DNA of 61,401 bases from a virus: positions 1 to 61,401 of IMG/VR virus record IMGVR_UViG_3300047463_000183; one strand, 5' to 3'. Below, piece after piece: positions 8,358-60,579 of this stretch; position 1 is the stretch's first letter, and every line of letters starts with the position of its first letter. The position numbers were made by a program, and so were the translations under genes. The notes beneath the pieces are model-generated. The model did not search any database, had not been told where the DNA came from, and worked only from the letters and a program-made list of their open reading frames with translations.

Positions 8358-8818
8358 TTCATTCCTCCCAGAACGGCCCACCGGCCCATCAACGCCGCTT
8401 CTGCCCTGCCGTCATGTTTGACCAACTTGAACAGGTCAGCCGCCCCTGGCCAAAGACGCATGGCCATCATCCGGGCACCGCTTTTGTCTGCCGGAACGCC
8501 AGCGCCTTTCTTCCACTTGAGCGGCGTGACGAACTGCAATGGCAGGCCAAGTGCCGTCGCCACACCTTCCAGAACGCCAGCCCCGTAGCCAAATGAGAAT
8601 GCCCCAACCGCACCCTCTCTGGGTCGGGTGGACACCTGCTCAATCAGCACGTAATCAATCGCGCCTCGCCCTTTCATCATGTCTGCGATCTGCGCGGCGA
8701 CAACGCGGTTCTTGTCGCGGATTTTCGCCACCGGCATGTCTTCAACCGCGATCAGATGACCGTCGGACGAAATCCATGCCAGTGCTCCTGATAAGCCTGG
8801 GTCGATTGATAAGATCAT
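8354..8818 (-). CDS. RuvC-like Holliday junction resolvase
   Basis: 154-aa RNase H-fold nuclease. ILSIDPGLSGALAWI gives the first catalytic aspartate, YVLIEQV the glutamate, and KHDGRAEAALMGRWA the last acidic cluster, in the order seen in RuvC and phage resolvases. KWKKGAGVPADKSGAR is typical of the phage branch. It would cleave branched replication or recombination intermediates before packaging. It overlaps its neighbours by 4 nt on both sides (ATGA/GTGA couplings). Confidence 0.88.
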   Translation of the reverse strand: MILSIDPGLSGALAWISSDGHLIAVEDMPVAKIRDKNRVVAAQIADMMKGRGAIDYVLIEQVSTRPREGAVGAFSFGYGAGVLEGVATALGLPLQFVTPLKWKKGAGVPADKSGARMMAMRLWPGAADLFKLVKHDGRAEAALMGRWAVLGGMK

Positions 8819-9513
8819 GCTGCCTCTTTGCTTTTGATTGCTGCGAAATTTAGGTAACAGACTTCCGCGTGTTTTTCACAATACGAAAGGTGACGGAACG
8901 AAGGCTCTTCACAGAACCTGAATCCAGGTTCTCTGACGTCACCCAGAGGGTATTGGCATGTTTTCGCCGCGCCGACCACGAAACGCCGGGGCGGCGGCGC
9001 GACCTTGGGGTGAACCTTGGGCGCGATATAATTGCCAAAGATCACTGTCGGCGGTTTGAACACCTTTATAACGCGACGTTCCTCCACGACTTTCTCCTTT
9101 TTAGCAGACGTTACATCTTTTTGTTTTATGGGTGAACCTCTTGACGGAAGACCAGCTCTCGTCTTGATTCCCATGACAGCATTTTTGGTAATCCCCAGAA
9201 TGTTGGCAATCTTATTTGCTGACAAACCCTCATTCCACAGATTTCTTACTCTTTCATACATTTCCGGGCTTTGTTTCCTTTGTCCAATTTCCGGAGCAAC
9301 GTATGGAGCAATGAGCACATGCGTGCTTGGTAGGTTCGTTCCATTCCTGAGAGACTGGATCGAGCCAACCGTTCGTAATGCCGTAAGCCAATGGTCAATG
9401 GTATCAGGATGAGATTTCATCATCTCAGCCAGTTCGCGCGTTCTTTTTCCTTCAACCTTGCCGTCGACAGCTAAGGAGGCAAGCAGAGCGTATAGTCTTT
9501 CTGGTCCGGTCAT
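8815..9513 (-). CDS. GcrA-family transcription regulator with extra N-terminal helix-turn-helix
   Basis: 232 aa. Residues about 1-70 form an extra winged-helix-like domain (RTRELAEMMKSHPDTIDHWL). Residues 84-128 match the GcrA DNA-binding helix-turn-helix (ERVRNLWNEGLSANKIANI, ITKNAVMGIKTRAGLPSRG). The C-terminus has the GcrA signature TCQYPLGDVREPGF followed by FCEEP and YCEKHAEVCY, with Cys/His residues at 186, 201, 212, 215 and 219. In Caulobacter, GcrA binds sigma70 and activates promoters carrying CcrM-methylated GANTC sites. As first gene of the leftward operon this protein may redirect host sigma70 RNA polymerase. The family is an alphaproteobacterial hallmark. GGTGA precedes the ATG. 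Confidence 0.88.
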   Translation of the reverse strand: MTGPERLYALLASLAVDGKVEGKRTRELAEMMKSHPDTIDHWLTALRTVGSIQSLRNGTNLPSTHVLIAPYVAPEIGQRKQSPEMYERVRNLWNEGLSANKIANILGITKNAVMGIKTRAGLPSRGSPIKQKDVTSAKKEKVVEERRVIKVFKPPTVIFGNYIAPKVHPKVAPPPRRFVVGAAKTCQYPLGDVREPGFRFCEEPSFRHLSYCEKHAEVCYLNFAAIKSKEAA

Positions 9514-10167: not shown

Positions 10168-10229
10168 ACAAACTTAAATCTTGCCCGTTCTGCGGCGAGG
10201 TCAGGGGATCTGGTCTTTCCGACCAGTAA
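10164..10229 (+). pseudogene. Remnant of a Lar-like zinc-finger protein
   Basis: MNKLKSCPFCGEVRGSGLSD is a 21-aa frame. Its first eleven residues match the opening of Lar/restriction-alleviation-like phage proteins (KLKSCPFCG), which normally continue 50-80 residues with a second cysteine pair. Only the first CxxC survives. The truncation lies directly before the TPR-glycosyltransferase, suggesting a deletion or insertion joint here. Confidence 0.45.
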
Positions 10230-10276
10230 TCGTCGCCCAGGCCGTCAGCGCCATGACTTTGAGAGATAACCACCAC

Positions 10277-11464
10277 ATGAACGAGATGCTACAGCATCCT
10301 CAGGCCGTTTCGCAAGGAAATGCGTTGGCTCAAGCTCAGTTTGGAGCCGCTTGCCGCGCTGAATGCCGCATACAGGACGCCATCGCACACGGCAGGGAAG
10401 CGGTTCGGCTCGACCCGACGAACGCCGACTACCTCGTCGCGCTGTCTTTGGCGTATGTCGATGCCGATGAGTTTGGAAAAGCCAAGAACTGCCTGATCCG
10501 GGCGCTCGGGTTGCAGCCAGACCATGCCGACGGCCATCTGGCGATGGCACAGATTCTGTTGGCCGAAGGCCACATGGAGGAAGGCTGGCGAGAATATGAA
10601 TGGCGTAACCTGACCGAGGCCGGTAAGGCGATCATGCCGAAAATGACGTCCATGCGTTGGAACGGGATGGAGATCCCCGATGGCCGTCTGCTGATCGTTG
10701 GCGATCAAGGCTACGGTGATACAATCCAGTTTGCCCGGTATATCCCCGCCGCGAAACGACGGGTCAAAGAAATCGTATTCGGGTGCAGCTCTGAAATGCG
10801 CCCTCTGTTTGAGAACTTCCCCGGCATAGATGCGTATTACGACCGATGGGATCACGTCCCGCCTCACGCGGCTCACTGCCATCTGTCAAGCTTGCCGTAT
10901 TTGGTCGAATACAACCCGCTCATATATCAAACGGATATTCCCTATTTAGGGGCTGAAACATCTCGGTTGAAACATTGGGAAAACAAACTGGGGAAAAGAT
11001 CGGGAGCAAAGCGAGTGGGGTTGGCGTGGAGTGGTCGTCCGACACACCCCAATGATAAGCGCCGATCCATGAGGCTCAAGGATTTGTTGCCGCTGTCGGA
11101 AATCAGCGGCGTTGAATTTGTGTCACTACAAAAGCCGATACCCGAAGACGATCAAGAAACTGTGAACAAATTTCCAGGTATGGTTGATCTGTCGGATGAA
11201 ATGACCGATTTCGGGGAAACCGCCGCGATATTGTGTGCCCTTGATGGCGTTATCACGATAGACACGGCGGTGGCTCATTTGGCAGGTGCCATGGGTGTGA
11301 AAACCCATGTGATGGTCGCGAAGGCCGCTGACTGGCGTTGGGGATTATCCTTGAAAAAATCGCTCTGGTATCCGACCGTCACGATCCTTCGTCAGGAAAT
11401 TCCTGGAGATTGGACGCCTGTTATTGAACAGGCTCGGCAATCCCTCATTCACCTGACATCCTGA
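10277..11464 (+). CDS. TPR protein with GT9-like glycosyltransferase domain
   Basis: 395 aa. The first about 110 residues contain TPR-like repeats (CRIQDAIAHGREAVRLDP, DEFGKAKNCLIRALGLQPDH, GHMEEGWREYEWRN). The rest resembles GT-B glycosyltransferases of the heptosyltransferase/GT9 type: LLIVGDQGYGDTIQFARYIP, KRVGLAWSGRPTHPNDKRRS and DGVITIDTAVAHLAGAMGVK, the last being the donor-site region. A role in modifying surface sugars or a phage protein is inferred. ATG 10277 follows GAGAGATAACCACC; frames open upstream lack a site. It ends 20 nt inside the converging minus-strand gene with no clear terminator. Confidence 0.75.
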   Translation: MNEMLQHPQAVSQGNALAQAQFGAACRAECRIQDAIAHGREAVRLDPTNADYLVALSLAYVDADEFGKAKNCLIRALGLQPDHADGHLAMAQILLAEGHMEEGWREYEWRNLTEAGKAIMPKMTSMRWNGMEIPDGRLLIVGDQGYGDTIQFARYIPAAKRRVKEIVFGCSSEMRPLFENFPGIDAYYDRWDHVPPHAAHCHLSSLPYLVEYNPLIYQTDIPYLGAETSRLKHWENKLGKRSGAKRVGLAWSGRPTHPNDKRRSMRLKDLLPLSEISGVEFVSLQKPIPEDDQETVNKFPGMVDLSDEMTDFGETAAILCALDGVITIDTAVAHLAGAMGVKTHVMVAKAADWRWGLSLKKSLWYPTVTILRQEIPGDWTPVIEQARQSLIHLTS

Positions 11465-15579: not shown

Positions 15580-16557
15580 TCAAGGGGAGTTCACACAAAG
15601 AGCCCAGGAGGCGGCGGAACCGAAATAAGACGCACAACTCGCCGCACCAACGCCAGATGCGGTAGATGTGCAAGATGAGTAAGTGTATTTGTTGCGGGTT
15701 GTTAGGCCTACGCTGCCGTTATACCCCAATGCAAATATCCCACGAGTGCTATTACCGGCTGCGGAACCGAAATAAGACGCACAACTCGCCGCACCAACGC
15801 CAGATGCGGTAGATGTGCAAGATGAGTAAGTGTATTTGTTGCGGGTTGTTAGGCCTACGCTGCCGTTATTCCCCAATGCAAATATCCCACGAGTGCTATT
15901 ACCGGCTGCGGAACCGAAATAAGACGCACAACTCGCCGCACCAACGCCGCATGCGGTGGATGTGCATGAGGAGTAAGTGTATTTGTTGCGGGTTACTAGG
16001 TTTACGCTGCCGTTATACCCCAATGCAAATATCCCACGAGTGCTGTTACCGGCTGCGGAACCACGACAAGACGCAACACTCGCCGCACCAACGCCAGATG
16101 CGGTAGATGTGCAAGATGAGTAAGTGTATTTGTTGCGGGTTGTTGACGATGCGGTTGTATAACCCAACGCGAATATCCCGCGAGTGCTGTTACCGGCGGC
16201 GGAACCTACATAAGACGCACAACTCGCCGCACCAACGCCGCATGCGGTGGATGTGCATGAGGAGTAAGTGTATTTGTTGCGGGTTGTTATGCCTACGCAG
16301 TTGTGATACCCCAATGCAAATATCCCACGAGTGCTATTACCGGCTGCGGAACCAGCAGCAGACGCACAACTCGCCGCACCAACGCCACATGCGGTGGATG
16401 TGCATGAGGAGTAAGTGTATTTGTTGCGGGTTGTTGACGCTGACGGTAAAAAACCCAACGCAAATATCCCCACCGTCCCGTCGGTCCCGGAGACACCAGC
16501 ATACCCAAACCCAAATCCATTGGCGGACATGCCGCCGCGCTGAATAAGCGAAGGCAT
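15580..16557 (-). CDS. Blade-repeat tail-fibre protein B (six repeats)
   Basis: 325 aa, almost wholly six repeats of about 42-49 residues. The constant parts read TTRNKYTYSSCTSTACGVGAAS and SAAGNSTRGIFALG, separated by two variable windows: 3-8 residues after ALG and 4-6 residues after GAAS. The protein opens with GTDGTVGIFALG and closes with SAASWALCVNSP, incomplete half-units that could close a ring as in beta-propellers. Each repeat carries paired cysteines. The DNA repeats are nearly identical, so unequal recombination is likely. Likely a receptor-binding fibre tip. A paralogue lies at 17167-18117. Confidence 0.75.
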   Translation of the reverse strand: MPSLIQRGGMSANGFGFGYAGVSGTDGTVGIFALGFLPSASTTRNKYTYSSCTSTACGVGAASCASAAGSAAGNSTRGIFALGYHNCVGITTRNKYTYSSCTSTACGVGAASCASYVGSAAGNSTRGIFALGYTTASSTTRNKYTYSSCTSTASGVGAASVASCRGSAAGNSTRGIFALGYNGSVNLVTRNKYTYSSCTSTACGVGAASCASYFGSAAGNSTRGIFALGNNGSVGLTTRNKYTYSSCTSTASGVGAASCASYFGSAAGNSTRGIFALGYNGSVGLTTRNKYTYSSCTSTASGVGAASCASYFGSAASWALCVNSP

Positions 16558-32749: not shown

Positions 32750-34405
32750 TCAACCCTGAGTGATTGTGATAGCAGAAGATGTTGTAAGGAAATAACTTTC
32801 TGGATCTCCAGAGATTATCCCAGTTCCACTTGATGGAGTTGTCAGCGTGCTATTGATATACACACTGAAAACCATTCTGGTCAAATTTGCTGTAGGAAGA
32901 ACAGAAGCTGTTGCAATCTGAAAAGCGTTCTGTAATTCAAACAGATTTATAGGTTGACCAACAGGAATGCTATTGATGTATGCGGCAATAGCAATAGCAC
33001 CAAGAGACGCCACCGTTGTAGCGGAAACAGAATAAAGAGAATTTGTATTCCACGTCAAAGACACAGTAACATTTTGAACTGGTGGAACTACAAATGGTAT
33101 CGTATAACTGTTAGGATAATCGTTGACAGTTATGTATTGCGTCCGAGCATTAGGCGTTATTACGCCACCGCTTACGTAAGCGGGAGCGGAAGACGAATTA
33201 TAAGTAATGCTAAACGTCGTTGCCGTAACGACCGTCACCGTCCAGGTGCCGTTCGCACCAGTCATTCCAAGGACGCCACTGATCGTGATAGAGTTCCCGG
33301 TCGTCAGGCCGTGCGGAAGGGCGGTCGTCACGACCGCCGCGCTGGCTTGAGTGATGCTGGTGATGACGCCGGTCTGCGATCCAGCCAGGGTCGTGATGTC
33401 GAAGACTGAATTGAAGATCGCGTTGGCGATCTGGTAGGGGTCGGCGGTGCCGCCGACGATGATCTGCCACGTGTTACCCTGCGGAACAATTGACACCAGC
33501 CGGTTTTGAACACCGCTTACATTGCCCAGCGCCGTCTTCAGGAAGCGCGGCATACTAAGAGCCGACGCCAAGCCAGCTTGCAGCACCTGGGACCGATAAT
33601 CGTCCACAGTCTGCGCACCAGTCGATGGCGTGCCAGGAAGCGGATTGGTGACGTTCAAAGCAATGCCAGTCGGCACTGACGTATTCAAGGTCGTCACGCT
33701 ATTGGCGGGGACAGCCCATGACCCAGATTGGGTAGCAAGGCAGTAAAGAGACGCCGACGACCCATTGGCGCTGAACGTGCCGCTGCCGGTATAGGCGGGT
33801 GCTGACGTTGAGTTATAGACGACGCTGAACGTCGTGGTCGACAGCACGGTGACGGTCCAGACGCCATTGATGCCGGTCATGCCAAGTGCGCCAGCGATGG
33901 TGATCTGCTGGCCAGTGGCGAGACCGTGTGCGCTTGTCGTCGTGACGACGGCTGGATTGGCCTGGGTGATGGCGCTGATCGTGCCGGACTGCGGCGCGGT
34001 GCCAATGATGCCGCCATCCTGCACCGTATATTGATACGTGCCGTCCGAGACCGTGAAGCCAATCGGAATGATGTAGCCCGGCGTGCCAGAGAACACGCAG
34101 TAGACCGACGTGTTGGTGCCCTGGCCCTGCTGGACGCCGTAGATCTGGCCAAGCTGGTTCAGCAGGAACTGATTGGCGCCGTAGGGCGTCACCGAATTGA
34201 TCAGTTCGACAAGGGCCGAGTTGCACTGAAGGATGGCGTAGACGTCAGTGCTGCTGATGTCTTCGATCAGCGTGCCGGGCAGGTTCGCCGTGTAGCCGGG
34301 ATTGGTGGCGGCGACACCGGCCAGAAGAGCAGTCTGGACGTCAGTGGGTGTAGCCGGTGTCATTCCGGCAGGACCCATGACGATAGGGATGGTTGTTCCG
34401 CTCAT
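32750..34405 (-). CDS. Baseplate J-like wedge protein with two inserted Ig/FCCH-like modules
   Basis: 551 aa. It matches baseplate J/gp47-like proteins: LPGTLIEDISSTDVYAILQC, VTPYGANQFLLNQLGQIYGV, then DDYRSQVLQAGLASALSMPR. Two inserted modules of about 65 residues are near 140-207 (TTTSAHGLATGQQITIAG, INGVWTVTVLSTTTFSVVYN) and near 350-415 (TALPHGLTTGNSITISG, ANGTWTVTVVTATTFSITYN). The same module occurs in other virion proteins here. Presence of a J-type wedge marks a contractile tail. Confidence 0.88.
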   Translation of the reverse strand: MSGTTIPIVMGPAGMTPATPTDVQTALLAGVAATNPGYTANLPGTLIEDISSTDVYAILQCNSALVELINSVTPYGANQFLLNQLGQIYGVQQGQGTNTSVYCVFSGTPGYIIPIGFTVSDGTYQYTVQDGGIIGTAPQSGTISAITQANPAVVTTTSAHGLATGQQITIAGALGMTGINGVWTVTVLSTTTFSVVYNSTSAPAYTGSGTFSANGSSASLYCLATQSGSWAVPANSVTTLNTSVPTGIALNVTNPLPGTPSTGAQTVDDYRSQVLQAGLASALSMPRFLKTALGNVSGVQNRLVSIVPQGNTWQIIVGGTADPYQIANAIFNSVFDITTLAGSQTGVITSITQASAAVVTTALPHGLTTGNSITISGVLGMTGANGTWTVTVVTATTFSITYNSSSAPAYVSGGVITPNARTQYITVNDYPNSYTIPFVVPPVQNVTVSLTWNTNSLYSVSATTVASLGAIAIAAYINSIPVGQPINLFELQNAFQIATASVLPTANLTRMVFSVYINSTLTTPSSGTGIISGDPESYFLTTSSAITITQG

Positions 34406-34749
34406 ACGGGGATACTCGCCTGGAATTGAACACCCTGATTGGTGGTGATGTTTATATTGTATGTTGGAGTAGGAGAGTAAATTTTACTGATTTGAAGCGT
34501 TGAAAAGAATTGAGAATATCTTTGCTGTATCAATGATACATAAAAATCAGGGAATATTTGCTGCACAACAGATTGTTGTGCTGGTATTCCCCAATTAGAC
34601 CAAAAGGGAGATTCACCTAAATTCAATTTAAGACATTGAATTAGAGCCGTTATGTAAACATAATCATTTTGACCAGATGCGCTTGTTTGCACTTCCTGCC
34701 ATGAATATGTTTGTGTCTGTGGATTCAGGACGCGACCATAAACTCTCAC
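34402..34749 (-). CDS. GPW/gp25-like baseplate wedge protein
   Basis: 115 aa. NDYVYITALIQCLKLNLGES then PFWSNWGIPAQQSVVQQIFP and RYSQFFSTLQISKI is the gp25-like pattern (loop with FWSNWGIP). The gene is placed between spike and baseplate J, as in many myoviruses. Overlaps both neighbours by 4 nt. Confidence 0.75.
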   Translation of the reverse strand: MRVYGRVLNPQTQTYSWQEVQTSASGQNDYVYITALIQCLKLNLGESPFWSNWGIPAQQSVVQQIFPDFYVSLIQQRYSQFFSTLQISKIYSPTPTYNINITTNQGVQFQASIPV

Positions 34750-35360
34750 GGAACCACAGCCCCTGTGTTGCCAGACCCTGCCGTAACGCCGGAATGTTCG
34801 TGCGAAAGGAAAGGCTTGCCATTGATGGTCAGCGTCCCGGTGATTGAGACACCGCTACTATTGATAGTAACATTGTTTCCGCCGACAGACAAGACGATCT
34901 GCGATGGCGTCAGCGTTATCTTGGCGTTCCCGCTGTCATCTTGAATGACAGCGCCGTTTGGACCGGTGATATTGTATGCGTTCGTATCAACAGAAGGAAA
35001 TGATACATTAGATAATGGAACAAAAACTAAAGTTGATAAATTGCTTTCTTTTCTTGAGTAATCCGCAACGCCACCCCCAAGACCGGTAACTCCTCCAAGA
35101 TAAACATCAGAAGATGTTAAGAATCCCTTATCTCCAATTTGAATTGGAGGTCTCGCATATCTTGATATTGCTTGTGGAACTGTTATTTGAGGAAATGTTA
35201 TATTACTGTTCACCTCAAACTTAACAGTTACCATTGATCCTTTTATAGCTACAACAGAGCATGGTAATTGTTGACCAAATTGTTGAGAGCTATCATCAAT
35301 GGCTCCTTTGACAAAATTTGTCATAGAGGCCGCAAATGGTATTTTCTGTCCAAGGCTCAA
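34746..35360 (-). CDS. Baseplate central spike (gp138/gpV-like)
   Basis: 204 aa. The N-terminal OB-like domain (QLPCSVVAIKGSMVTVKFEV, YARPPIQIGDKGFLTSSDVY) resembles the Gp138 N-terminal family. A beta-helical stretch (NAKITLTPSQIVLSVGGNNV) leads to a tip FLSHEHSGVTAGSGNTGAVV containing HxH, which in P2 and phi92 spikes binds iron at the membrane-piercing apex. It follows the hub gene. Confidence 0.82.
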   Translation of the reverse strand: MSLGQKIPFAASMTNFVKGAIDDSSQQFGQQLPCSVVAIKGSMVTVKFEVNSNITFPQITVPQAISRYARPPIQIGDKGFLTSSDVYLGGVTGLGGGVADYSRKESNLSTLVFVPLSNVSFPSVDTNAYNITGPNGAVIQDDSGNAKITLTPSQIVLSVGGNNVTINSSGVSITGTLTINGKPFLSHEHSGVTAGSGNTGAVVP

Positions 35361-36439
35361 GTAAAACCTCCTGCACCAGTTTGGGATTGAGTTTGAACCG
35401 GAACTCCTTCAAAAACTGTTACCCAAGAATTGGCGTCAGGTTGCCTGAAACTTCCAACATGCCTTACACTTATAATTTGAAACAATCCATTTTGATTTAA
35501 TTTATCTCTATAGTTCTTTGGAGTAAATGGATTAGAAGAAGCTATTCCATAATATCCACTTGGAAGTAATACTGTATCATTGATATTTATATCTGATCTC
35601 ATGGCGCATTTGAATTGAATTAAACCTACATCAATCCACGTTGGCTGACCAATGAATGATGTAAAATCTATAGAAACATTTTTTGATTTATTGGAAACAT
35701 CGCCACTTTCTTGTGCTATCTGAACTGAAGATGGAATATTAGTTCCATCTAATACAACAAAATATCCATTTGCATTTTGTTGTATAGTAACTCCAGTATA
35801 ATTTCCACCTATCATTTTTTTTGTAAATTGTCTTAGCCATTCAGAAAAAGATGAAAGATCTTTATATACGCCGGATTGAGGAGATGGTAAAACTAAATTT
35901 GGACTTAAGTTTTGATATACTTTACTTCCAGGCATTGCATTGTTAAAAAAATCAACAATAACAGATGATATACTAGTTCCAGCTGGCCAGTAAAAGAATC
36001 CATTAAATGGTTGAGAGTAATCGCCCGTAAGAGGAGGAGATGGATTTGAAGAAGATTTAGTAGCAAGACCCGGAGTCATCATAAAATTCAAAGTCATTTC
36101 AGTGCCCTGCCAATTGCCGAAGCATTGCAGGATTTGCCCCTGAAAAATAGGACCAGAAAATTTTGATGCGACGGTCGCTAATGGTAAACCTTTTTGAAAT
36201 CCAGCTTTTATAAGTATGTTTTTACCATTTTGATTAAACGCATTTGATATTTCTTGTAATGGTATTCCCCATATAGTTAAAGCGCAATTACCTACCGGAT
36301 TATCAAATGTAGATACAGGAATGTCGAATTGTATATTAAGAGCGCCGGGCGTAGTTACGCCATTCAGCAAGCTGCTATACACTATTGGTGTAGCTCTTTG
36401 ATTATTGGGATCAGTTATTGTGATCTCATAATATCTCAA
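35357..36439 (-). CDS. Baseplate hub protein
   Basis: 360 aa, AT-rich gene. It begins MRYYEITITDPNNQRATPIV and contains ILIKAGFQKGLPLATVASKF and GPIFQGQILQCFGNWQGTEM, then LSSFSEWLRQFTKKMIGGNY and SGYYGIASSNPFTPKNYRDK. Order (immediately before the spike, after tape measure and two small baseplate genes) and the strand-rich sequence fit a gp27/hub-type protein. The family is not certain. Confidence 0.7.
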   Translation of the reverse strand: MRYYEITITDPNNQRATPIVYSSLLNGVTTPGALNIQFDIPVSTFDNPVGNCALTIWGIPLQEISNAFNQNGKNILIKAGFQKGLPLATVASKFSGPIFQGQILQCFGNWQGTEMTLNFMMTPGLATKSSSNPSPPLTGDYSQPFNGFFYWPAGTSISSVIVDFFNNAMPGSKVYQNLSPNLVLPSPQSGVYKDLSSFSEWLRQFTKKMIGGNYTGVTIQQNANGYFVVLDGTNIPSSVQIAQESGDVSNKSKNVSIDFTSFIGQPTWIDVGLIQFKCAMRSDININDTVLLPSGYYGIASSNPFTPKNYRDKLNQNGLFQIISVRHVGSFRQPDANSWVTVFEGVPVQTQSQTGAGGFT

Positions 36440-37005
36440 GGGCTAACCTCAAACTGCATATTTTTTGCTCTGTATATTAAGGTAGAATTAAAGTATCCCG
36501 CTGTCATACTAACATCATAAGATGCAATACCAGAAGTAATTAAAGTTCCTGGATATGATTGTAAATAATAAGTAAATTGATTGTTATTTATAATTGTGCA
36601 TTTGTATGTTCCATTATATGACAGTGGAATTGTATTTTTAATAGTAATATTTACTATTGATCCAACCTTAAAACCATGATTAGTTGATGTTGTTATTGTT
36701 ACTGTATTTGATAACCAATTAACATTCGAAATGTAAATAGCCGAACCAGATGATACTAATGGTAAATAAAAAATAATACTACCCGATAAAGTTTCACATT
36801 GAACATAATATCTTTGTCCAAACAAGCACCAAGGAACACTTATATTATATTGATTTCCATCAAAATTTGGTTGAAAATTAAATGGAGGTGGACCTTGTGT
36901 TGTTGCAACGGGGTTCAATCCAAGAGGATTTAGACCAAGAAGAACAGAAGGAATTTGAGAGGACGGACCAGTAACTATGGGAGTGAATTGATAATACGTT
37001 GTCAT
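36436..37005 (-). CDS. Baseplate protein carrying one Ig/FCCH-like module
   Basis: 189 aa, very AT-rich. LNPLGLNPVATTQGPPPFNF, GNQYNISVPWCLFGQRYYVQ, then a module (TSTNHGFKVGSIVNITI, LSYNGTYKCTIINNNQFTYY) like those in the baseplate J and sheath proteins. It ends TLIYRAKNMQFEVS. The flanking domain resembles baseplate plug proteins only by position. Confidence 0.6.
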   Translation of the reverse strand: MTTYYQFTPIVTGPSSQIPSVLLGLNPLGLNPVATTQGPPPFNFQPNFDGNQYNISVPWCLFGQRYYVQCETLSGSIIFYLPLVSSGSAIYISNVNWLSNTVTITTSTNHGFKVGSIVNITIKNTIPLSYNGTYKCTIINNNQFTYYLQSYPGTLITSGIASYDVSMTAGYFNSTLIYRAKNMQFEVSP

Positions 37006-37008
37006 TTT

Positions 37009-37644
37009 TCACTGCCCAGGAACTTTAGTGACGGAACTATTGCTTACATTTTGCAAAAAATTGTTCAACGCCCCTTGAGCAGCTTGAAGAGAAACAAGAG
37101 GCTGAACAAAATCCCATTGCCATGTATTTTGCGGAATTGGATTAGCTCCAGAGCTGACGTCAGTCAATCCAGTTAATATCATGTTGGTGTAAATACTAGC
37201 TGGAGTGACAACGGTATATGTGCCACCTTGCCTTGCGTGTGTTTCAACGACAGCCTGCAACATCTCCATCGTCACTAATTTCGCCGTATGACCTCCAGGG
37301 CTTTTTACAGGTATACTCATTTTCATTGATAATGTCAAAGGTTCTGCAATTATAGCATTTGCTGCTACAGACTGATTTGCAAAAGGATATTGTCCTATTG
37401 AATATTTAGCTATAGTTCCGCCAGGAACTGGCGTAAAATGAGCAAAAAAATTATCAAGATTGAATGAATCACTGCCTGACAATATGTTGGCCACAAAATT
37501 AGCAGCCTCAGTTATAAATACAATTGGAAGATAACCCTCTATTCCAAAATTAGAGGCTATTCCATTTGTGAATATGATTGGAGAGCATTGAAAACCAAGT
37601 TGATATACAACTCGCCCAAATGTGTTTAAAACACTTCCGCTCAT
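37009..37644 (-). CDS. Baseplate-region structural protein (211 aa)
   Basis: VLNTFGRVVYQLGFQCSPII, PLTLSMKMSIPVKSPGGHTA, KLVTMEMLQAVVETHARQGG and NTWQWDFVQPLVSLQAAQGA. Position directly after the tape measure is where LysM/hub-associated or tail-tip proteins of DUF3383-sheath phages lie. Function is inferred from order only. Confidence 0.65.
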   Translation of the reverse strand: MSGSVLNTFGRVVYQLGFQCSPIIFTNGIASNFGIEGYLPIVFITEAANFVANILSGSDSFNLDNFFAHFTPVPGGTIAKYSIGQYPFANQSVAANAIIAEPLTLSMKMSIPVKSPGGHTAKLVTMEMLQAVVETHARQGGTYTVVTPASIYTNMILTGLTDVSSGANPIPQNTWQWDFVQPLVSLQAAQGALNNFLQNVSNSSVTKVPGQ

Positions 37645-37651
37645 AAATCAC

Positions 37652-39511
37652 CTAAGAATTGTAACGAGCTGTTGATCTTTGTTTAAGCTGGTTGGCATTT
37701 ATTACTGTGTTTGATCCAGGCTCTTGATAAACATGAACATTGACATCAACATTGGAATATCCACTTCCATATTGAGATCCACCGCCAAATACTTTAGCAA
37801 TATATTGAGCTGTTTCTTGCGGCAAGAAATCCCTCCACCTTGCCCCATGCTCACGAATGTCTCTTTGAAGATTTCCCTGACCCCAGTTGTAAGCGGCTAC
37901 AGCTTTTTCAGGATCTCCTCCAAACATAGCGAGAAGATCCGAATAATATCTAGCCGCAGCGTTTGCTGATTGAACAAGGTCATAAGGATTTTGCAATCCA
38001 TACTGACGCGCGGTTCCTGGCATAAATTGGAAATGACCCATAGCGCCAGCAGATGACATCATGCTAGCACCCCTTCCGCTTTCCGCAGACCAGACGCTAT
38101 CCAGCAATCCAGTCGGCAAGCCATATTGAGATTCCAGAGATGAGAACAAACCTCTACTATAAGAAGTTCCCCCAGGAGTTCCGCTTATTCCCCTATAAGA
38201 GGTTTGATGAAGAAGTCCGGGGAATAGTGAATTTTTATAAATATCATCAGATCTTTTTAAGAATCCATTAAACCAATCCATAAATGGAGTGGGTTTATCA
38301 GACTCAGAATTACCTTCATATTGTTTTCTTATTTCTTCTTCACTTTTTGCAACTTCTTCTTGAGATGGAAACCATTTTGATAGCCAAGAGGCAAATCTTC
38401 CAAGACCCTTAATTACTTCTCCCATTTCTTTGACGTATTCTTTTATTATATCTTTAGTTTCTGGTTTTTTTAGATCTTCAGACAAAGAGTGAATCCAATC
38501 AGAAAATTCATGAATACCACTCTTAAAATCAGGGCTAGAAAATATAGTTTCAGATAAATCTGCAAAAGAATAAGCTACTTCACTTATAGATAAAGCTAAT
38601 GGAGATAATCCCTTTACAAAAGTATTTTCTATTTTAGATGCAGCTTTATTCATGTTTTCCATGAAGTTAGCCCAAGGCTCAGTCTCTTTTGCGGAAAGAG
38701 AAAGATCACGCACTGCCCCAGGATATTTTTTTCCTAACTGCTCTAATTCTCCAGTTCTTCTCAAAAATTCAAGTTGCCTCGCGACATTTACATTGATTCC
38801 AAGATCTGTGAAACCAAGAGCCTGAAGCTGAGATCCTCTCAATCCAGTAGGTATGGCAGAAATTCTCGCGGCCGATCTTGATAAAACTTCAGGGAGAAGT
38901 TCAGCTGCATTTTTGCTTTCAATCTCTTCTCTTGAAAATCCAAGCTGTTGCAGCTTCCAGTAATTTCTTACATCTCCTTGAATTGCTGCAATTGAACTTA
39001 AAATATTAGATGCACCAGGAAGTCTTGTTCCATAAGTGGTTTCTGCTGCTTTCAACTCGCCAGGGGCGACGCCCAAACCTATAGCAGTCGCCCTTTGACC
39101 GGAGGCAGAGCTTCCGAGCCTTTCCAAACCGGAAAATGTGAAATATCCAGCCAGCCCCGTGAAGACGCTGGTCAAGCCAGCCCACTTCATAAGAGACATG
39201 GTGGTGCTTTTTATGCTTAAATCAAACTGGCGGGCAGTTCGATTTAGCTTAACCATTTGTATTTCTGTTTTAGAAAATTCTAATGTTATCTTTTTTTGAT
39301 TTTCAATTATATCTTTGTTTATTTTAGCCAAATCAATCATAGATTTGGACATGTTTGTCAGAGAATCTGCCGTTTCTTTTAAAGCAGATCCAGATTCGTT
39401 CCATAATGCAGGTAAATTTTCAAGCTCCTGCTTGTATTCTAAGAATTTTTCATAGAACGAAGTAAACGCGCTATCGTTAACTTCAATGTCAATTACAGAT
39501 TTTACGGCCAT
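37652..39511 (-). CDS. Tape measure protein with C-terminal lytic transglycosylase
   Basis: 619 aa, short for a myovirus tape measure. The N-terminal about 100 residues are coiled coil (YEKFLEYKQELENLPALWNE), followed by a hydrophobic stretch (MSLMKWAGLTSVFTGLAGYF). A soluble lytic transglycosylase domain lies at about 462-575: LLDSVWSAESGRGASMMSS with catalytic-type Glu near 477, AMGHFQFMPGTARQYGL and AVAAYNWGQGNL. It probably sets tail length and locally cuts peptidoglycan on injection. The start abuts the stop of the frameshifted chaperone (TAAATG). Confidence 0.88.
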   Translation of the reverse strand: MAVKSVIDIEVNDSAFTSFYEKFLEYKQELENLPALWNESGSALKETADSLTNMSKSMIDLAKINKDIIENQKKITLEFSKTEIQMVKLNRTARQFDLSIKSTTMSLMKWAGLTSVFTGLAGYFTFSGLERLGSSASGQRATAIGLGVAPGELKAAETTYGTRLPGASNILSSIAAIQGDVRNYWKLQQLGFSREEIESKNAAELLPEVLSRSAARISAIPTGLRGSQLQALGFTDLGINVNVARQLEFLRRTGELEQLGKKYPGAVRDLSLSAKETEPWANFMENMNKAASKIENTFVKGLSPLALSISEVAYSFADLSETIFSSPDFKSGIHEFSDWIHSLSEDLKKPETKDIIKEYVKEMGEVIKGLGRFASWLSKWFPSQEEVAKSEEEIRKQYEGNSESDKPTPFMDWFNGFLKRSDDIYKNSLFPGLLHQTSYRGISGTPGGTSYSRGLFSSLESQYGLPTGLLDSVWSAESGRGASMMSSAGAMGHFQFMPGTARQYGLQNPYDLVQSANAAARYYSDLLAMFGGDPEKAVAAYNWGQGNLQRDIREHGARWRDFLPQETAQYIAKVFGGGSQYGSGYSNVDVNVHVYQEPGSNTVINANQLKQRSTARYNS

Positions 39512-51739: not shown

Positions 51740-51925
51740 TCAGTTTCCGTTCACAACGGCCAGTGACAATTTACGATGCTGCTGTATGTGTGATTCGGCG
51801 GATTTCGATGGTTCTAACCAATCGACAGTGACGCCAGCAGCCTGACATGCAGAAAAAAGAATTTCTGGTGTAATGATCACACCTTTACGCATCAATGCGA
51901 TATACAAAAGTGTAATCGGATTCAT
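51740..51925 (-). CDS. Small protein between terminase and portal (61 aa)
   Basis: MNPITLLYIALMRKGVIITP then EILFSACQAAGVTVDWLEPS. It has helical, partly hydrophobic N-terminal sequence and a polar tail. The start overlaps the terminase stop by 1 nt (TGATG). Function unknown. Confidence 0.65.
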   Translation of the reverse strand: MNPITLLYIALMRKGVIITPEILFSACQAAGVTVDWLEPSKSAESHIQQHRKLSLAVVNGN

Positions 51926-53217
51926 CAGAAACCTTCTTGATTGCCAAGAGCAATCGCGACAGCATAACAAAAAGCGTCCAATAAATCATCTTCATGCTGG
52001 TCTTTGATGCCAACCGTAAACATCAAAACCTGATTCAACAGATGATTTCTGACAGCCCCTTTGTATTTGACCGTCTTTTCGTAAGCGAACTTCGATAACT
52101 TAACCATATTCCGGTAAACATAACCGGAAATGGAAATCGCTCTTTCAGTCTTGCCCAACGCGGTGAGCTTACTGTCGATACGATTTGTATTCCAGCCGCG
52201 CCTCTGGCCCTGCTGAAGCAGGATCATTCCGCTTGCTTTGTCTTCCAGCCAGACGCCCAGAGAACCCATCTGAGCATGGCATTCACCGGCCAGATACTCG
52301 CAGTGTTCGAAGACGGACGGAAGCCACGTCTCCAACAAAGCGCCTTCGATCTGGCGGATGTCGTAATCCAGGATCACCAGCGGGTGATGACCCTCAAACT
52401 GACTGACGGCGCAGTAGACGACCGCCGTGCCATCGTGTTCCTTGCCGACCTTGGTCGCCGTGTCGATGACGGCGAAGACGCCGGAACACAACTCTGGATA
52501 CCGCACCGCCTTGCCTTCGTGCAGCATGTTCTCCAGCGAGAAGAACTGAACACCGGCCCAATCGACGAACTCAGCCAGATATTCCTGCTGCCAAACAAGC
52601 GGTGGCCGTTCTCTCTGCAACCGCTCCAGTTCCGCCGCTGGCATGAACGGGTTCGAACTGGTCGGCGCGTGGAACTCAGTGAAGCCGTGTTCTGGCTCGT
52701 TGCAGATGCGCCAGAAGAAGTTGTCCTGATCGACGCCGTTGGTGTTACTCAGCGCCGTCGCTGACCCCATGTAGTCCAGAAGGGTCGGCTGGATCGAGCG
52801 GTTCCAGATGTCCATCATGTTCGGCTTGGTGAAAGCCGCTTCGTCGATGATGACCTCGTGGTATTTCCTCGACCGGCCCGCGCTCTCGTTCTCCAACGAC
52901 CAGAAATCTATGCGCCCACCGGTCCTGGTCCGAATGACGCCTTCAGTCTTCGAAGACATCGAGATGACCGGCTTCAGCATGTCGATCAGTTCGTTATAGA
53001 CTTCCGCCTGATATTTGTAGGCGGGAGTGAAGTAACCGATCAGCTTGCCGTTGATCGCTGAGTTTCCAGCCAGGGTCTGCGCGAAGGCGGTTTTGCCCCA
53101 TCTGCGCCCGCAGCGAATCGCTTTAAATCGGGCCGGATGGCCGTTCTTATCCTGGAGAAGAAACGCATTAACCTGACCAGGATGAAGTGTCGGAAGCGTG
53201 ACGTTGATGGCTGGCAT
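51925..53217 (-). CDS. terL: Terminase large subunit
   Basis: 430 aa. ATPase: CGRRWGKT (Walker A, 36-43), then HEVIIDEAAF (Walker B, about 120-129), with SATALSNTNG as the coupling region. Nuclease: FAVIDTATKVGKEHDGT with catalytic-type Asp252, and EDDLLDAFCYAVA near the end. Packages DNA using ATP. Short upstream gene overlaps by 1 nt. Confidence 0.93.
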   Translation of the reverse strand: MPAINVTLPTLHPGQVNAFLLQDKNGHPARFKAIRCGRRWGKTAFAQTLAGNSAINGKLIGYFTPAYKYQAEVYNELIDMLKPVISMSSKTEGVIRTRTGGRIDFWSLENESAGRSRKYHEVIIDEAAFTKPNMMDIWNRSIQPTLLDYMGSATALSNTNGVDQDNFFWRICNEPEHGFTEFHAPTSSNPFMPAAELERLQRERPPLVWQQEYLAEFVDWAGVQFFSLENMLHEGKAVRYPELCSGVFAVIDTATKVGKEHDGTAVVYCAVSQFEGHHPLVILDYDIRQIEGALLETWLPSVFEHCEYLAGECHAQMGSLGVWLEDKASGMILLQQGQRRGWNTNRIDSKLTALGKTERAISISGYVYRNMVKLSKFAYEKTVKYKGAVRNHLLNQVLMFTVGIKDQHEDDLLDAFCYAVAIALGNQEGF

Positions 53218-53297
53218 CAGGCAAAATGACCCCTTGGCGGGTCGAGCCGCTCTTTTGGGCAGCGGTCCAGCTCAAAAGCCTCCTGCTGATCGCCCAT
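53217..53297 (-). CDS. Tiny hypothetical gene (26 aa)
   Basis: MGDQQEAFELDRCPKERLDP then PRGHFA. The ATG follows AGGGGGTCTGTTT, and its stop overlaps the terminase start (TGATG), so it may serve mainly for translational coupling. The product, if made, is unrecognised. Confidence 0.45.
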   Translation of the reverse strand: MGDQQEAFELDRCPKERLDPPRGHFA

Positions 53298-53308
53298 AAA
53301 CAGACCCC

Positions 53309-53800
53309 CTATGACACGATCCTTTGGACAAGTAAAGGACTGATTTCAAAATTTGTTGAATTTACGCAAACAATTATTCTTTTCAGAGATTTTACCTTGA
53401 TAACCTCTCCGATCTGACCCTTCATTAATCCGGATTGTATTTGAACTTTGTCATTTACCTTGAATAAGGTGAAATTTTTATCTTCGAATTGCCAAGATTT
53501 CTCTTCTTGCTTTATCAATTCTATTGCATCATCGTTGATAACAAGATAATCATTGGTCAGTCTGTTTTTCATGATTGATATTTTTTCTGAATAAGACAAC
53601 AGAATGCCAACATTCTCTTGTTTTACAAACACATATCCAGGATACGCTGGCTCAATGAACAAGACCTTGGCGCGTCTTGTTCTGGATATCCTTTTTGTGT
53701 TCTTGATGACGGGGCAATACGCCTCCCCGCCATTCGCGACGACGTAGGCGCAGGCGGCAATCGTCTTGCCGTATCGAACCGTCCCTACGGTCCAACTCAT
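53309..53800 (-). CDS. NusG-like transcription factor (NGN + KOW domains)
   Basis: 163 aa. The N-terminal NGN-like domain (MSWTVGTVRYGKTIAACAYV, GGEAYCPVIKN, YPGYVFVKQE) and C-terminal KOW motif (FKVNDKVQIQSGLMKGQIGE then VIKV) match NusG/RfaH. NusG NGN binds RNA polymerase clamp helices, and KOW contacts Rho, NusE or ribosomes. It is encoded at the head of the late operon between small and large terminase genes, so processive antitermination over the 43-kb operon is the simplest hypothesis. The gene is AT-rich relative to its neighbours. Confidence 0.82.
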   Translation of the reverse strand: MSWTVGTVRYGKTIAACAYVVANGGEAYCPVIKNTKRISRTRRAKVLFIEPAYPGYVFVKQENVGILLSYSEKISIMKNRLTNDYLVINDDAIELIKQEEKSWQFEDKNFTLFKVNDKVQIQSGLMKGQIGEVIKVKSLKRIIVCVNSTNFEISPLLVQRIVS

Positions 53801-54243
53801 TCAGCTTTCCCGTCGATGATTTTGGCTGGATCAGGCAGACCGCCGATCACGTTGATCGTGACCTGATTGTCCCTCTGGTCCTGGTCGTCCTGCTGGCGCC
53901 ACTTACCCCGAGCCTTCATCCAGAAGATCGCCGCCGGGACGCAGCCCTGGTCACGACTGGTGGCGATGTTGAACAGGTTCTGCGCGACGGCGAAATTGGC
54001 CTTGGCGGTTCCGGTGGCCAGTTCCTGCTTGAAATGGTTGTGCAGGGTGCCGACCGAGACGCCAAGGATCTCAGCGATCTGTTCCTGGGTCAGACCCATG
54101 CCGACCATGCTTTCGACCTGCTGGCGCTGGTAGCCGTCAAAGGCATACTCGCCGCCGATGGTGCGAGGAGCGACGTTTCCAGGACCGTTTTCCCGGAATG
54201 TGTGGGTCTGAGGCTCTTCTTCCAACTTGTCGAGCTTAAACAT
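53797..54243 (-). CDS. terS: Terminase small subunit-like DNA-binding protein
   Basis: 148 aa. YQRQQVESMVGMGLTQEQIA then EILGVSVGTLHNHFKQELAT is a clear helix-turn-helix, followed by a helical oligomerisation region (NFAVAQNLFNIATSRDQGCV) and KARGKWRQQD. This fits small terminases that recognise packaging sites. The start is chosen at MFKLDKLEEEP because GGAG lies 7 nt upstream; in-frame ATG codons further up lack this. Confidence 0.72.
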   Translation of the reverse strand: MFKLDKLEEEPQTHTFRENGPGNVAPRTIGGEYAFDGYQRQQVESMVGMGLTQEQIAEILGVSVGTLHNHFKQELATGTAKANFAVAQNLFNIATSRDQGCVPAAIFWMKARGKWRQQDDQDQRDNQVTINVIGGLPDPAKIIDGKAE

Positions 54244-54260
54244 TGACCACTCCATAATAC

Positions 54261-54283
54261 AGAGAGGGGGAGACCCCCTCTCT
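54261..54283 (-). other. Strong hairpin upstream of small terminase gene
   Basis: AGAGAGGGGG (54261-54270) and CCCCCTCTCT (54274-54283) form a perfect 10-bp stem with a 3-nt loop, preceded on the transcribed strand by an AT dinucleotide run (54284-54295). The sequence after it (GTATTATGG) has no U-tract, so an mRNA processing or stability element is more likely than a terminator. Confidence 0.6.
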
Positions 54284-54299
54284 CTATATATATATGGAA

Positions 54300-54533
54300 T
54301 CAGGCCAGACGCCAAATACGAAAGCCATTCTCGACCCGGCGCGACGTGAACTTCACGCCTTCGACCTTGCCGTAAATTTCCTTCGCGACCCGCATGGCGT
54401 TGATGCGGTCGGACTGCTTTTCGACGAAAAAGCTGTCGCCCGGACGCATCTTGTCCACCGGATAACGCGGCTCGCGTTCACCCTTGACACGAGCGACGCC
54501 AGTCACCTCGATACCGTGCTCGATATGAAACAT
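54300..54533 (-). CDS. Small conserved phage protein at head of late operon (77 aa)
   Basis: MFHIEHGIEVTGVARVKGER, VDKMRPGDSFFVEKQSDRIN, KFTSRRVENGFRIWRLA. The RPGDSFFV and FTSRxVENGxRIWR patterns recur in many small phage proteins of unknown function. The ATG at 54533 has GGAGAGG upstream. First gene read leftward from the second divergent region. Confidence 0.72.
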   Translation of the reverse strand: MFHIEHGIEVTGVARVKGEREPRYPVDKMRPGDSFFVEKQSDRINAMRVAKEIYGKVEGVKFTSRRVENGFRIWRLA

Positions 54534-54631
54534 TACCCTCTCCTTGTTACAAGAAAACAACTCGTTATGGATACACGCACTTTGAATACGTCATAACTCA
54601 ACTCAAAGCATATCTGTTATGCATCTTTTGC
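54534..54631. promoter_or_regulatory. Divergent intergenic region between late and accessory blocks
   Basis: 98 bp, AT-rich, separates the leftward late block from the rightward accessory block, so it should hold at least one promoter. CTTGTTACAAG (54543-54553) is an 11-bp palindrome and GTTATG/CATAAC (54564-54569, 54591-54596) a spaced inverted repeat. I find no convincing -35/-10 pair for host sigma70, consistent with activator-dependent late transcription. Confidence 0.45.
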
Positions 54632-55045
54632 ATGAATATATTTCTTGTCGCAAAACACGAAATGGATAAACATCCTAAAATGTTCAAACGAGAGAATGAC
54701 CCAGAAAAGATTAAGCGGTTTATTTTTTCAAATGATCCCGCTATAATATCAATCATGTTCGAGTCAAAAGGAAGGGAGTATGAATATAAGATAAAGACGA
54801 CTGATATCGTTCACGATACAAGGTTCGTTTATGTTGACGTTAACGGGAGACAAGAAGATGAAATACTGATTGGTTTGTTTAACCGGCAAAAGTTCGCCAA
54901 AATCCTCATGTGTCCGTTGCCGCACCTTGATCAACGAATACAAGCATGGATATGGTTTGAGGATCAGGTTCTTGTTCGTAAAATACGGCCATCACGTGTG
55001 CTTTTGTCCGTCAGCTTGAAAATGAAAATGAGGGAAAAGCAATGA
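54632..55045 (+). CDS. Hypothetical protein (137 aa)
   Basis: NIFLVAKHEMDKHPKMFKRE, NDPEKIKRFIFSNDPAIISI, DIVHDTRFVYVDVNGRQEDE, RQKFAKILMCPLPHLDQRIQ. Mixed alpha/beta, basic C-terminus (SLKMKMREKQ). The start is uncertain, with no good ribosome-binding site at 54632; an in-frame ATG at 54662 is possible. AT-rich. Not recognised. Confidence 0.55.
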   Translation: MNIFLVAKHEMDKHPKMFKRENDPEKIKRFIFSNDPAIISIMFESKGREYEYKIKTTDIVHDTRFVYVDVNGRQEDEILIGLFNRQKFAKILMCPLPHLDQRIQAWIWFEDQVLVRKIRPSRVLLSVSLKMKMREKQ

Positions 55046-55218
55046 TACACCTTAATGAAAAAAGCGTTCCATTTATTGTTGTTACAAATATCAAGGAGAA
55101 TACAAAACCAATATCAATCGCACTTTACGATGAAAATTCATCATCACTTATCATGTTGACAAAGCCAAAATGCATCAAGTTAATTGCCGAACTACAAAAA
55201 GCAATGGGAGAAAACTGA
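55042..55218 (+). CDS. Small hypothetical protein (58 aa)
   Basis: MIHLNEKSVPFIVVTNIKEN, TKPISIALYDENSSSLIMLT, KPKCIKLIAELQKAMGEN. A small alpha/beta protein. ATG overlaps the preceding stop (ATGA) with GAGGGAAAAGC upstream, and its stop overlaps the next start (TGATG). Function unknown. Confidence 0.6.
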   Translation: MIHLNEKSVPFIVVTNIKENTKPISIALYDENSSSLIMLTKPKCIKLIAELQKAMGEN

Positions 55219-55634
55219 TGCAGACCTTTTTGCCATACAAGGATTTCGCCACTTGTGCCGCCGTTCTGGACCGTCAGCGTCTGGGCAAGCAGCGCGTCGA
55301 GACCCTTCAGATCCTGAAAACATTGATCTCGGGTGCGAAAGCGTGGTCCAATCACCCCGCCGTGAAGATGTGGCGGGGACACGAGTTCGCCCTTGTCGAA
55401 TATGGTCTGGCCATATGCGACGAATGGGTCGAGCGCGGATACCAAGACACATGCGCGGAAAAGATGCTGGCGATCCCCTTGCGTGGTGGATCAAAGGCAA
55501 ACCCGGCGTGGCTTGACGACCCACGTCTGACTGAAACGCACCGGTCAAATCTGATCCGGAAGCTGCCTGAACACTATCGGTGCTTCTGGCCAGATACGCC
55601 AGATCATCTCGGTTACTGGTGGCCGGTCAACTGA
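55218..55634 (+). CDS. Pyrimidine-dimer DNA glycosylase/endonuclease V-like (PF03013 type)
   Basis: 138 aa. MQTFLPYKDFATCAAVLDRQ, RLGKQRVETLQILKTLISGA, NHPAVKMWRGHEFALVEYGL and LPEHYRCFWPD follow the PF03013 pattern (MQTFLPYPDF...LDxxRLGKQR). T4 DenV of the broad family removes UV dimers; members of this branch have not all been shown to act on DNA. It may repair UV-damaged phage DNA. Confidence 0.78.
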   Translation: MQTFLPYKDFATCAAVLDRQRLGKQRVETLQILKTLISGAKAWSNHPAVKMWRGHEFALVEYGLAICDEWVERGYQDTCAEKMLAIPLRGGSKANPAWLDDPRLTETHRSNLIRKLPEHYRCFWPDTPDHLGYWWPVN

Positions 55635-59688: not shown

Positions 59689-59980
59689 CGCCCACCCCTT
59701 CGTCCGCCTCTTGTTCGACGAAATGCGGAAGAAAGGGATGTCGATCAGCGATCTGGCCATCAGAAGCGGCGTCGACCGAAACACCATCTCGTCATGGCGT
59801 CGGCGAGGAACCATGACCCTTAACAGCATGGAATGCTGTCTTGGCGTGTTTGGTCTTGAGTTGATGGCCGTTAACGATCCAAAGAAGATAGAAATTGCGT
59901 CAGCGAAAATGGCGGCGTATAAAGTGACGATGGATCTGATAAAACATCACGCAGAGACAATACTGAAGGTGGCGAAATGA
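59651..59980 (+). CDS. XRE-type helix-turn-helix regulator (109 aa)
   Basis: HPFVRLLFDEMRKKGMSISD then LAIRSGVDRNTISSWRRRGT, with LNSMECCLGVFGLEL as the fourth helix, is a lambda-repressor-like DNA-binding domain. The C-terminal 40 residues are helical. Overlaps the preceding gene by 38 nt. Without an integrase it is more likely a regulator of the accessory operon than a lysogeny repressor. Confidence 0.82.
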   Translation: MTNRPSKLDCPSDAHPFVRLLFDEMRKKGMSISDLAIRSGVDRNTISSWRRRGTMTLNSMECCLGVFGLELMAVNDPKKIEIASAKMAAYKVTMDLIKHHAETILKVAK

Positions 59981-60579
59981 ACGAAGAAATCAGAGCGGCG
60001 AGAGAAGAGTGCCTCATGTTAATGAGGATCTGGCACGATTGCGAAAGAAGGCTGTCTTATGTCGACAGTCACTATAATTGGTCCTTGAAAAACGGCCATG
60101 AACCTGACGCATTTCTTGTTGGCGCCGAGCAAGAAAAAAGAGATATATCTCGCGAAAAATACATAGATTCTTGCCATGTCTTGAATAACCTGGAGAGAAT
60201 TGAGCTAGAGAGTCGGAAGAAAAAAGAGGAAGAGATCGCCCAAAAGAAACGCGAGAATCTCCAAAAGAAACGTGAAGTTCAAATGAAGCGTCAAGAGTCT
60301 GGGGTAAGCCTAGATCCAAAAGAAAGAATGGGAGAAATATATCGAAGAAGGCTGGAAGGCAAAACTTATAAAGAAATAGGTGAAGAGTTTTGTTTTTCAA
60401 AAAGTAACGTAGAAAAAATAGTGAAATTAGCGCATGAAAAAATACAAAAAATAATGAGCAGGGATATTCTTAATACGCCATCAGGCTTGCCGAAAGACGT
60501 GGAACTTGCTCACGGAATATGGCACACGTTTTCGTGGGAAGATAAGCCAGAGCCGGTGTGGAAAATGGAGGTGAGATAA
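59977..60579 (+). CDS. Coiled-coil protein with sigma-region-4-like helix-turn-helix (200 aa)
   Basis: The central part is a charged coiled coil (ELESRKKKEEEIAQKKRENL). PKERMGEIYRRRLEGKTYKE then IGEEFCFSKSNVEKIVKLAH resembles the helix-turn-helix of sigma region 4/LuxR-type domains. It could engage -35-like DNA or RNA polymerase. The tail (ELAHGIWHTFSWEDKPEPVW) is unrecognised. ATGA overlap with the XRE gene. AT-rich. Confidence 0.6.
   Translation: MNEEIRAAREECLMLMRIWHDCERRLSYVDSHYNWSLKNGHEPDAFLVGAEQEKRDISREKYIDSCHVLNNLERIELESRKKKEEEIAQKKRENLQKKREVQMKRQESGVSLDPKERMGEIYRRRLEGKTYKEIGEEFCFSKSNVEKIVKLAHEKIQKIMSRDILNTPSGLPKDVELAHGIWHTFSWEDKPEPVWKMEVR

Follow-up and report, generated by a model that had tools for sequence, protein, structure and literature searches.

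A diverged NusG paralog between the terminase genes of an uncultured phage, and the placement of NusG genes beside terminase in related and unrelated phages

Why a phage should carry a NusG-like gene between the genes for the two subunits of its terminase is the question raised by a viral sequence of 61,401 nucleotides (the window; IMG/VR record IMGVR_UViG_3300047463_000183). The original prediction, made from the letters of the sequence, read the product as an NGN and KOW protein at the head of a long late operon and took an RfaH-like antiterminator to be its simplest function. To our knowledge, late-gene control in many alphaproteobacterial phages has not been worked out. The gene class itself is already known, its members being annotated "transcription antiterminator" in phages, and our literature search of open-licence papers found no functional study of a phage-encoded NusG. 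The main new result of this study is comparative evidence on the recurrent placement of NusG genes beside terminase.

The gene lies on the minus strand (53309-53800) and is an intact ORF of 163 aa with an ATG start and no internal stops. Profiles and the predicted fold place an NGN domain at approximately residues 1-105 and a KOW domain at approximately residues 113-163. By profile match the protein belongs to the phage transcription antiterminator family PHROG 6386 (E = 2.2e-12; residues 2-148 against profile positions 14-162 of 179). Single-domain profiles recovered the proposed architecture in part: the NGN match (PF02357) narrowly missed its cut-off (E = 7.7e-4, 20.4 bits versus 22.2), and the KOW match (PF00467, 11.6 bits) was not significant on its own. 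The best single NCBIfam match was UpxY (NF033644; 3.1e-16, 59.8 bits versus a cut-off of 100), and scores also fell below the cut-offs of the models for RfaH (TIGR01955; 24.6 versus 144.5 bits), LoaP (NF033641; 28 versus 125 bits) and housekeeping NusG (TIGR00922; 18.6 versus 135.7 bits). Since the protein lies below the RfaH, UpxY, LoaP, NusG and Pfam NusG cut-offs, we regard it as a specialised, highly diverged paralog and not as a member of the RfaH family. Its flanking genes are terS and terL, not the secE-nusG-rplK neighbourhood of housekeeping NusG.

Sensitivity was gained by pooling phage proteins. A profile made from ten phage NusG-like proteins matched solved structures of RfaH (4e-23) and NusG (1e-20) end to end, and each of the ten proteins matched Pfam NusG, at E of 0.01 or lower, as well as TIGR01955, at E of 0.001 or lower; a profile scan of the first five had shown no conserved stretch. 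An IMG/VR scan with the window protein as query returned zero close relatives. The single match among annotated phages, MT835724, was rejected as phage evidence: it lies 3′ of a membrane antiporter-like ORF and resembles a piece of gut bacterial chromosome. When Rhizobiales genomes were searched with PHROG 6386, housekeeping NusG overwhelmed the matches, and the result was discarded.

The AlphaFold model of the window protein (pLDDT 87.5) combines an NGN domain with a KOW domain folded as a beta barrel. As the original prediction anticipated, its best PDB matches in Foldseek were NusG and RfaH, and the top viral matches included a phage protein named RfaH (TM 0.78). TM-scores against whole NusG chains were low, at 0.4-0.47, and rmsd was large. 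A difference in the relative placement of the two domains would give this result, and the NusG assignment therefore rests on the profiles and the Foldseek E-values. PHROG 6386, the ten-member profile and the structure prediction agree that the protein is a member of the NusG/Spt5 superfamily with NGN and KOW domains. That the model shows KOW as a beta barrel, and not as the RfaH-type alpha hairpin, is weak evidence on fold switching, given a ten-row alignment.

The FPGYxxV segment, which in NusG is the polymerase-facing part of NGN, is conserved in all ten phage proteins, with the position of E. coli NusG Tyr68 invariant. Phe165 of E. coli NusG binds S10 and Rho; the KOW of the window protein has Thr at this position and Gln at that of Phe144, substitutions suggesting that the contact which NusG makes with Rho or S10 has been lost. 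A protein that kept its polymerase face and had lost these phenylalanines might compete for the polymerase clamp with the host's NusG, blocking NusG-Rho coupling generally, as an anti-Rho or host-takeover factor with no particular operon as its target. We consider this unlikely, as such a factor would be expected to act early, whereas in many phages the genes are found where the late block begins or at the early/late junction, and several sister phage proteins still have Phe at the 165 position.

The location between the terminase genes is as first described. The late block, on the minus strand, is preceded by an intergenic gap (54534-54631), the expected site of the late promoter, beyond which plus-strand ORFs face it from 54632 (first gene 54632-55045). 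Its first gene, starting at 54533, encodes a 77-aa protein (54300-54533) that is DUF7303-like below cut-off and has a homolog in the two closest relatives, L003 and L035. A G+C-rich stem-loop (54261-54284, minus strand; z -3.15, no clear U tract) separates it from the gene for the 148-aa terminase small subunit TerS (53797-54243, minus strand; PHROG 309, 6.7e-16), whose ATG is common to L003 and L035. The TerS stop and the NusG start overlap by 4 nt (ATGA), and the gene for the large subunit TerL (51925-53217, minus strand; PHROG 2, 1.2e-22) starts 91 bp past the NusG stop.

Downstream follow the portal, head, sheath, tail and tail fibre genes, so that the block of packaging and structural genes that is the presumed target of the factor spans 9576-54533. 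Within it, a run of minus-strand genes at 34402-39511 has 31-43% G+C (GC3 16-36%), compared with approximately 52% G+C for the phage, and looks like an imported tail module from its composition. The expectation of a late operon with weak internal terminators was upheld: terminator-like sites between 4 and 61 kb showed no excess over shuffled sequence, and the sole strong minus-strand terminator is at 9608-9576. A plus-strand ORF with a weak PHROG match (10181-11464) makes the far end of the block uncertain. One stem-loop sequence occurs three times at 15629-15942 (minus strand) with a spacing of 147 bp, which is probably an internal tandem repeat in the gene at 15580-16557.

How such a factor would be recruited was sought in the leader. 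No sigma-70 consensus was found on the minus strand of the gap at 54534-54631, an absence that could be explained by a candidate phage sigma-70 region 4 protein encoded at 59977-60579 on the plus strand (PHROG 1190; PF04545 at 1e-4, below cut-off). The ops-like or shared element that the original prediction hoped to see did not emerge: no ops match occurred at three or fewer mismatches on either strand of 53201-55333, and the comparison of leaders gave no shared recruitment signal. This lack of a recruitment element is consistent with a general anti-Rho factor as described above. The leader stem-loop (54284-54261) has no UNCG loop, and it is also present in L003 with the stem kept in a different sequence, which suggests selection acting on structure; because no NusG gene was seen in L003, we reject it as a NusG-specific recruitment element. 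In another lineage, L050, NusG starts at 1748, and its leader has a pair of strong hairpins, of -29.8 and -18.4 kcal/mol, lying approximately 390 and 260 nt upstream of that start, with no obvious U tract.

Relatives were gathered through TerL, giving 59 TerL clusters at 90% identity, many of whose contigs are fragments; one scan for TerL relatives in genomes was empty, and these were later recovered by alignment. Of the 59 clusters, 10 contain a NusG gene; among the 46 whose records extend at least 1.3 kb upstream of TerL, the number is 9. The gene invariably shares the strand of TerL, which it precedes with a distance of 95-1437 bp between its end and TerL, and the records searched showed no NusG gene in any other position. 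Under uniform placement the chance of this arrangement is approximately 1e-13, a figure that ignores the picking of contigs for TerL. The usual order is NusG-TerS-TerL, and the window has TerS-NusG-TerL. Most relatives have no NusG gene, including several records of 57-77 kb and the closest relatives L003 and L035, whose TerL is 86% identical and whose terS-terL slot holds a different small ORF. The gene is therefore accessory, and phages of this type can transcribe their late genes without it. Among annotated gammaproteobacterial TerL relatives (Shewanella, Yersinia and Actinobacillus phages), no NusG is annotated in the 4 kb before terL. The order NusG-TerS-TerL is retained in five further contigs of the L050 lineage, a relative of the window phage, and dN/dS of its NusG gene is 0.08-0.11; NusG is under purifying selection there.

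NusG genes are also found beside terminases of other kinds. In Rhizobiales prophages of two MAGs, a Rhizobiales bacterium (L181) and a Bradyrhizobium (L180), the gene lies 1.4 kb and 3.2 kb, respectively, upstream of a gpA-type terminase. In the viral contig L216 it is followed by a PF03592 TerS, a Terminase_6 TerL and the portal gene, and in L182 and L183 by an HNH gene, at contig ends. Named, cultured phages show the same pattern: Sinorhizobium phage phi3LM21 has NusG (p27), TerS (p29) and TerL (p30), Agrobacterium phage Rivra has NusG (gp65) and HNH with TerS and TerL over the circular join, and Sinorhizobium phage phiLM21 has a 'transcription antiterminator' (gp34; PHROG 6386 at 3.6e-11, no Pfam match) followed by HNH, TerS and TerL. 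An antiterminator ORF has been reported in all phiLM21-like prophages (PMC12429752). A NusG gene thus stands beside terminase, at nearly the same position, in phages both related and unrelated to that of the window, several of which infect Alphaproteobacteria. The original statement that NusG proteins are uncommon in phages is correct overall, but needs amending for this locus, where they recur in alphaproteobacterial phages.

This anchoring, across terminase families and with the overlap with terS in the window, weighs against the gene being cargo with an effect on operons of the host, for instance surface polysaccharide clusters. Chromosomal RfaH and UpxY paralogs act in that way and are found in such clusters (for example L184, one Hyphomicrobiales MAG), but we judge the explanation highly improbable for the window gene. 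That unrelated phages keep the gene at the same place is best explained by late-operon antitermination.

The window phage suggests an alphaproteobacterial host, both from its relatives in alphaproteobacterial genomes and from a homolog of GcrA (8815-9513, minus strand; PF07750, 1.3e-22), a regulator of the cell cycle in Alphaproteobacteria; a few related MAG contigs are labelled as other than alphaproteobacterial. The origin of the NusG gene is less clear. The phage NusGs fail to group as a single clade in our tree, which needs seven changes, at least two of them forced by supported branches; they may have been captured more than once, may have evolved fast, or both. The branch of the window protein, at 4.15 changes per column, makes its placement impossible, and capture from a Bacteroidota UpxY, which we considered as an origin, is not supported by the tree. 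Such a branch, the fall in G+C along the gene from 60% to approximately 30%, the absence of a close relative and the presence of another small ORF at this place in L003 would all fit a gene that was captured recently, may be inert, and occupies an insertion-tolerant slot between terS and terL. Yet the frame is intact and the fold well predicted, sister genes are under purifying selection, and several further genes in this mosaic phage are just as rich in A+T; we regard an inert capture as very unlikely.

We therefore return to late-operon antitermination, for which known NusG paralogs offer precedents. Each of LoaP, TaA and UpxY has as its target a long operon adjoining its own gene (PMC7819879), and plasmid NusG paralogs within tra operons have been proposed to function likewise (PMC7593976). 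The nearest counterparts of the window gene are those of PHROG 6386 phages (phi3LM21 p27 and Rivra gp65), which share its family and its position at the start of the packaging genes; these precede terS, whereas the window gene lies between terS and terL and is far diverged in sequence. RfaH of E. coli resembles the window protein as a two-domain NusG paralog, with a full-length profile match through the phage family. The idea of an RfaH-like antiterminator accordingly stands as a specialised NusG paralog heading late genes, but not in the narrow RfaH sense, given the score far below the model cut-off, the leader without ops, a gene that lies inside its presumed target and, more weakly, the beta KOW of the model. 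UpxY of Bacteroides, encoded near the head of the operon on which it acts, is a parallel in position, but the window protein reaches well under its cut-off and does not group with Bacteroidota proteins. LoaP of Bacillus, an antitermination factor, is likewise encoded beside the long operon it controls. It binds a UNCG hairpin (PMC12691694), whereas the stem-loop at 54284-54261 in the window leader lacks a UNCG loop and occurs also where NusG is absent, and its model is matched at 28 of 125 bits.

Among phage regulators, lambda Q sits at the early/late junction, and lambda Q, GafZ and other late antiterminators are not known to be NusG-fold proteins. They load at a promoter-linked DNA site, and their likeness to the window protein is the control of a late operon, proposed in our case. 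For GafZ, the late/particle operon is the one controlled (PMC11150451).

A resident role in processivity or antitermination is consistent with the location at the head of the late operon across unrelated terminase types, with the shared orientation and with selection, and we think it likely that the window protein lets host polymerase read the long late block to its end. Lying inside this block, the gene cannot be needed for starting it. As third gene of the block, apparently coupled translationally to terS, it would be made from the first late transcripts, and the factor would allow later polymerases to finish the block; this would be a self-reinforcing late switch with the position of lambda Q and the fold of NusG. 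Polymerase binding, antitermination and self-reinforcement are what we infer for the window protein from its family and its place. Tentatively, and with somewhat less confidence, we suggest that phages, chiefly alphaproteobacterial ones, may repeatedly have taken NusG paralogs as a late-gene switch, in the place of the Q-type antiterminators of lambdoid phages. TerS-NusG-TerL in the window would be a self-reinforcing version of this switch, with the factor encoded in the very operon on which it acts.

For late-gene control, a factor of NusG fold whose gene is tied to terminase in unrelated phages is a directly testable candidate. Phages phi3LM21 and Rivra, which carry the gene and have hosts that can be cultured in the laboratory, allow it to be tested without the uncultured window phage. 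If the proposed role is true, phage packaging operons would join capsule, antibiotic and conjugation operons as operons served by a resident NusG paralog.
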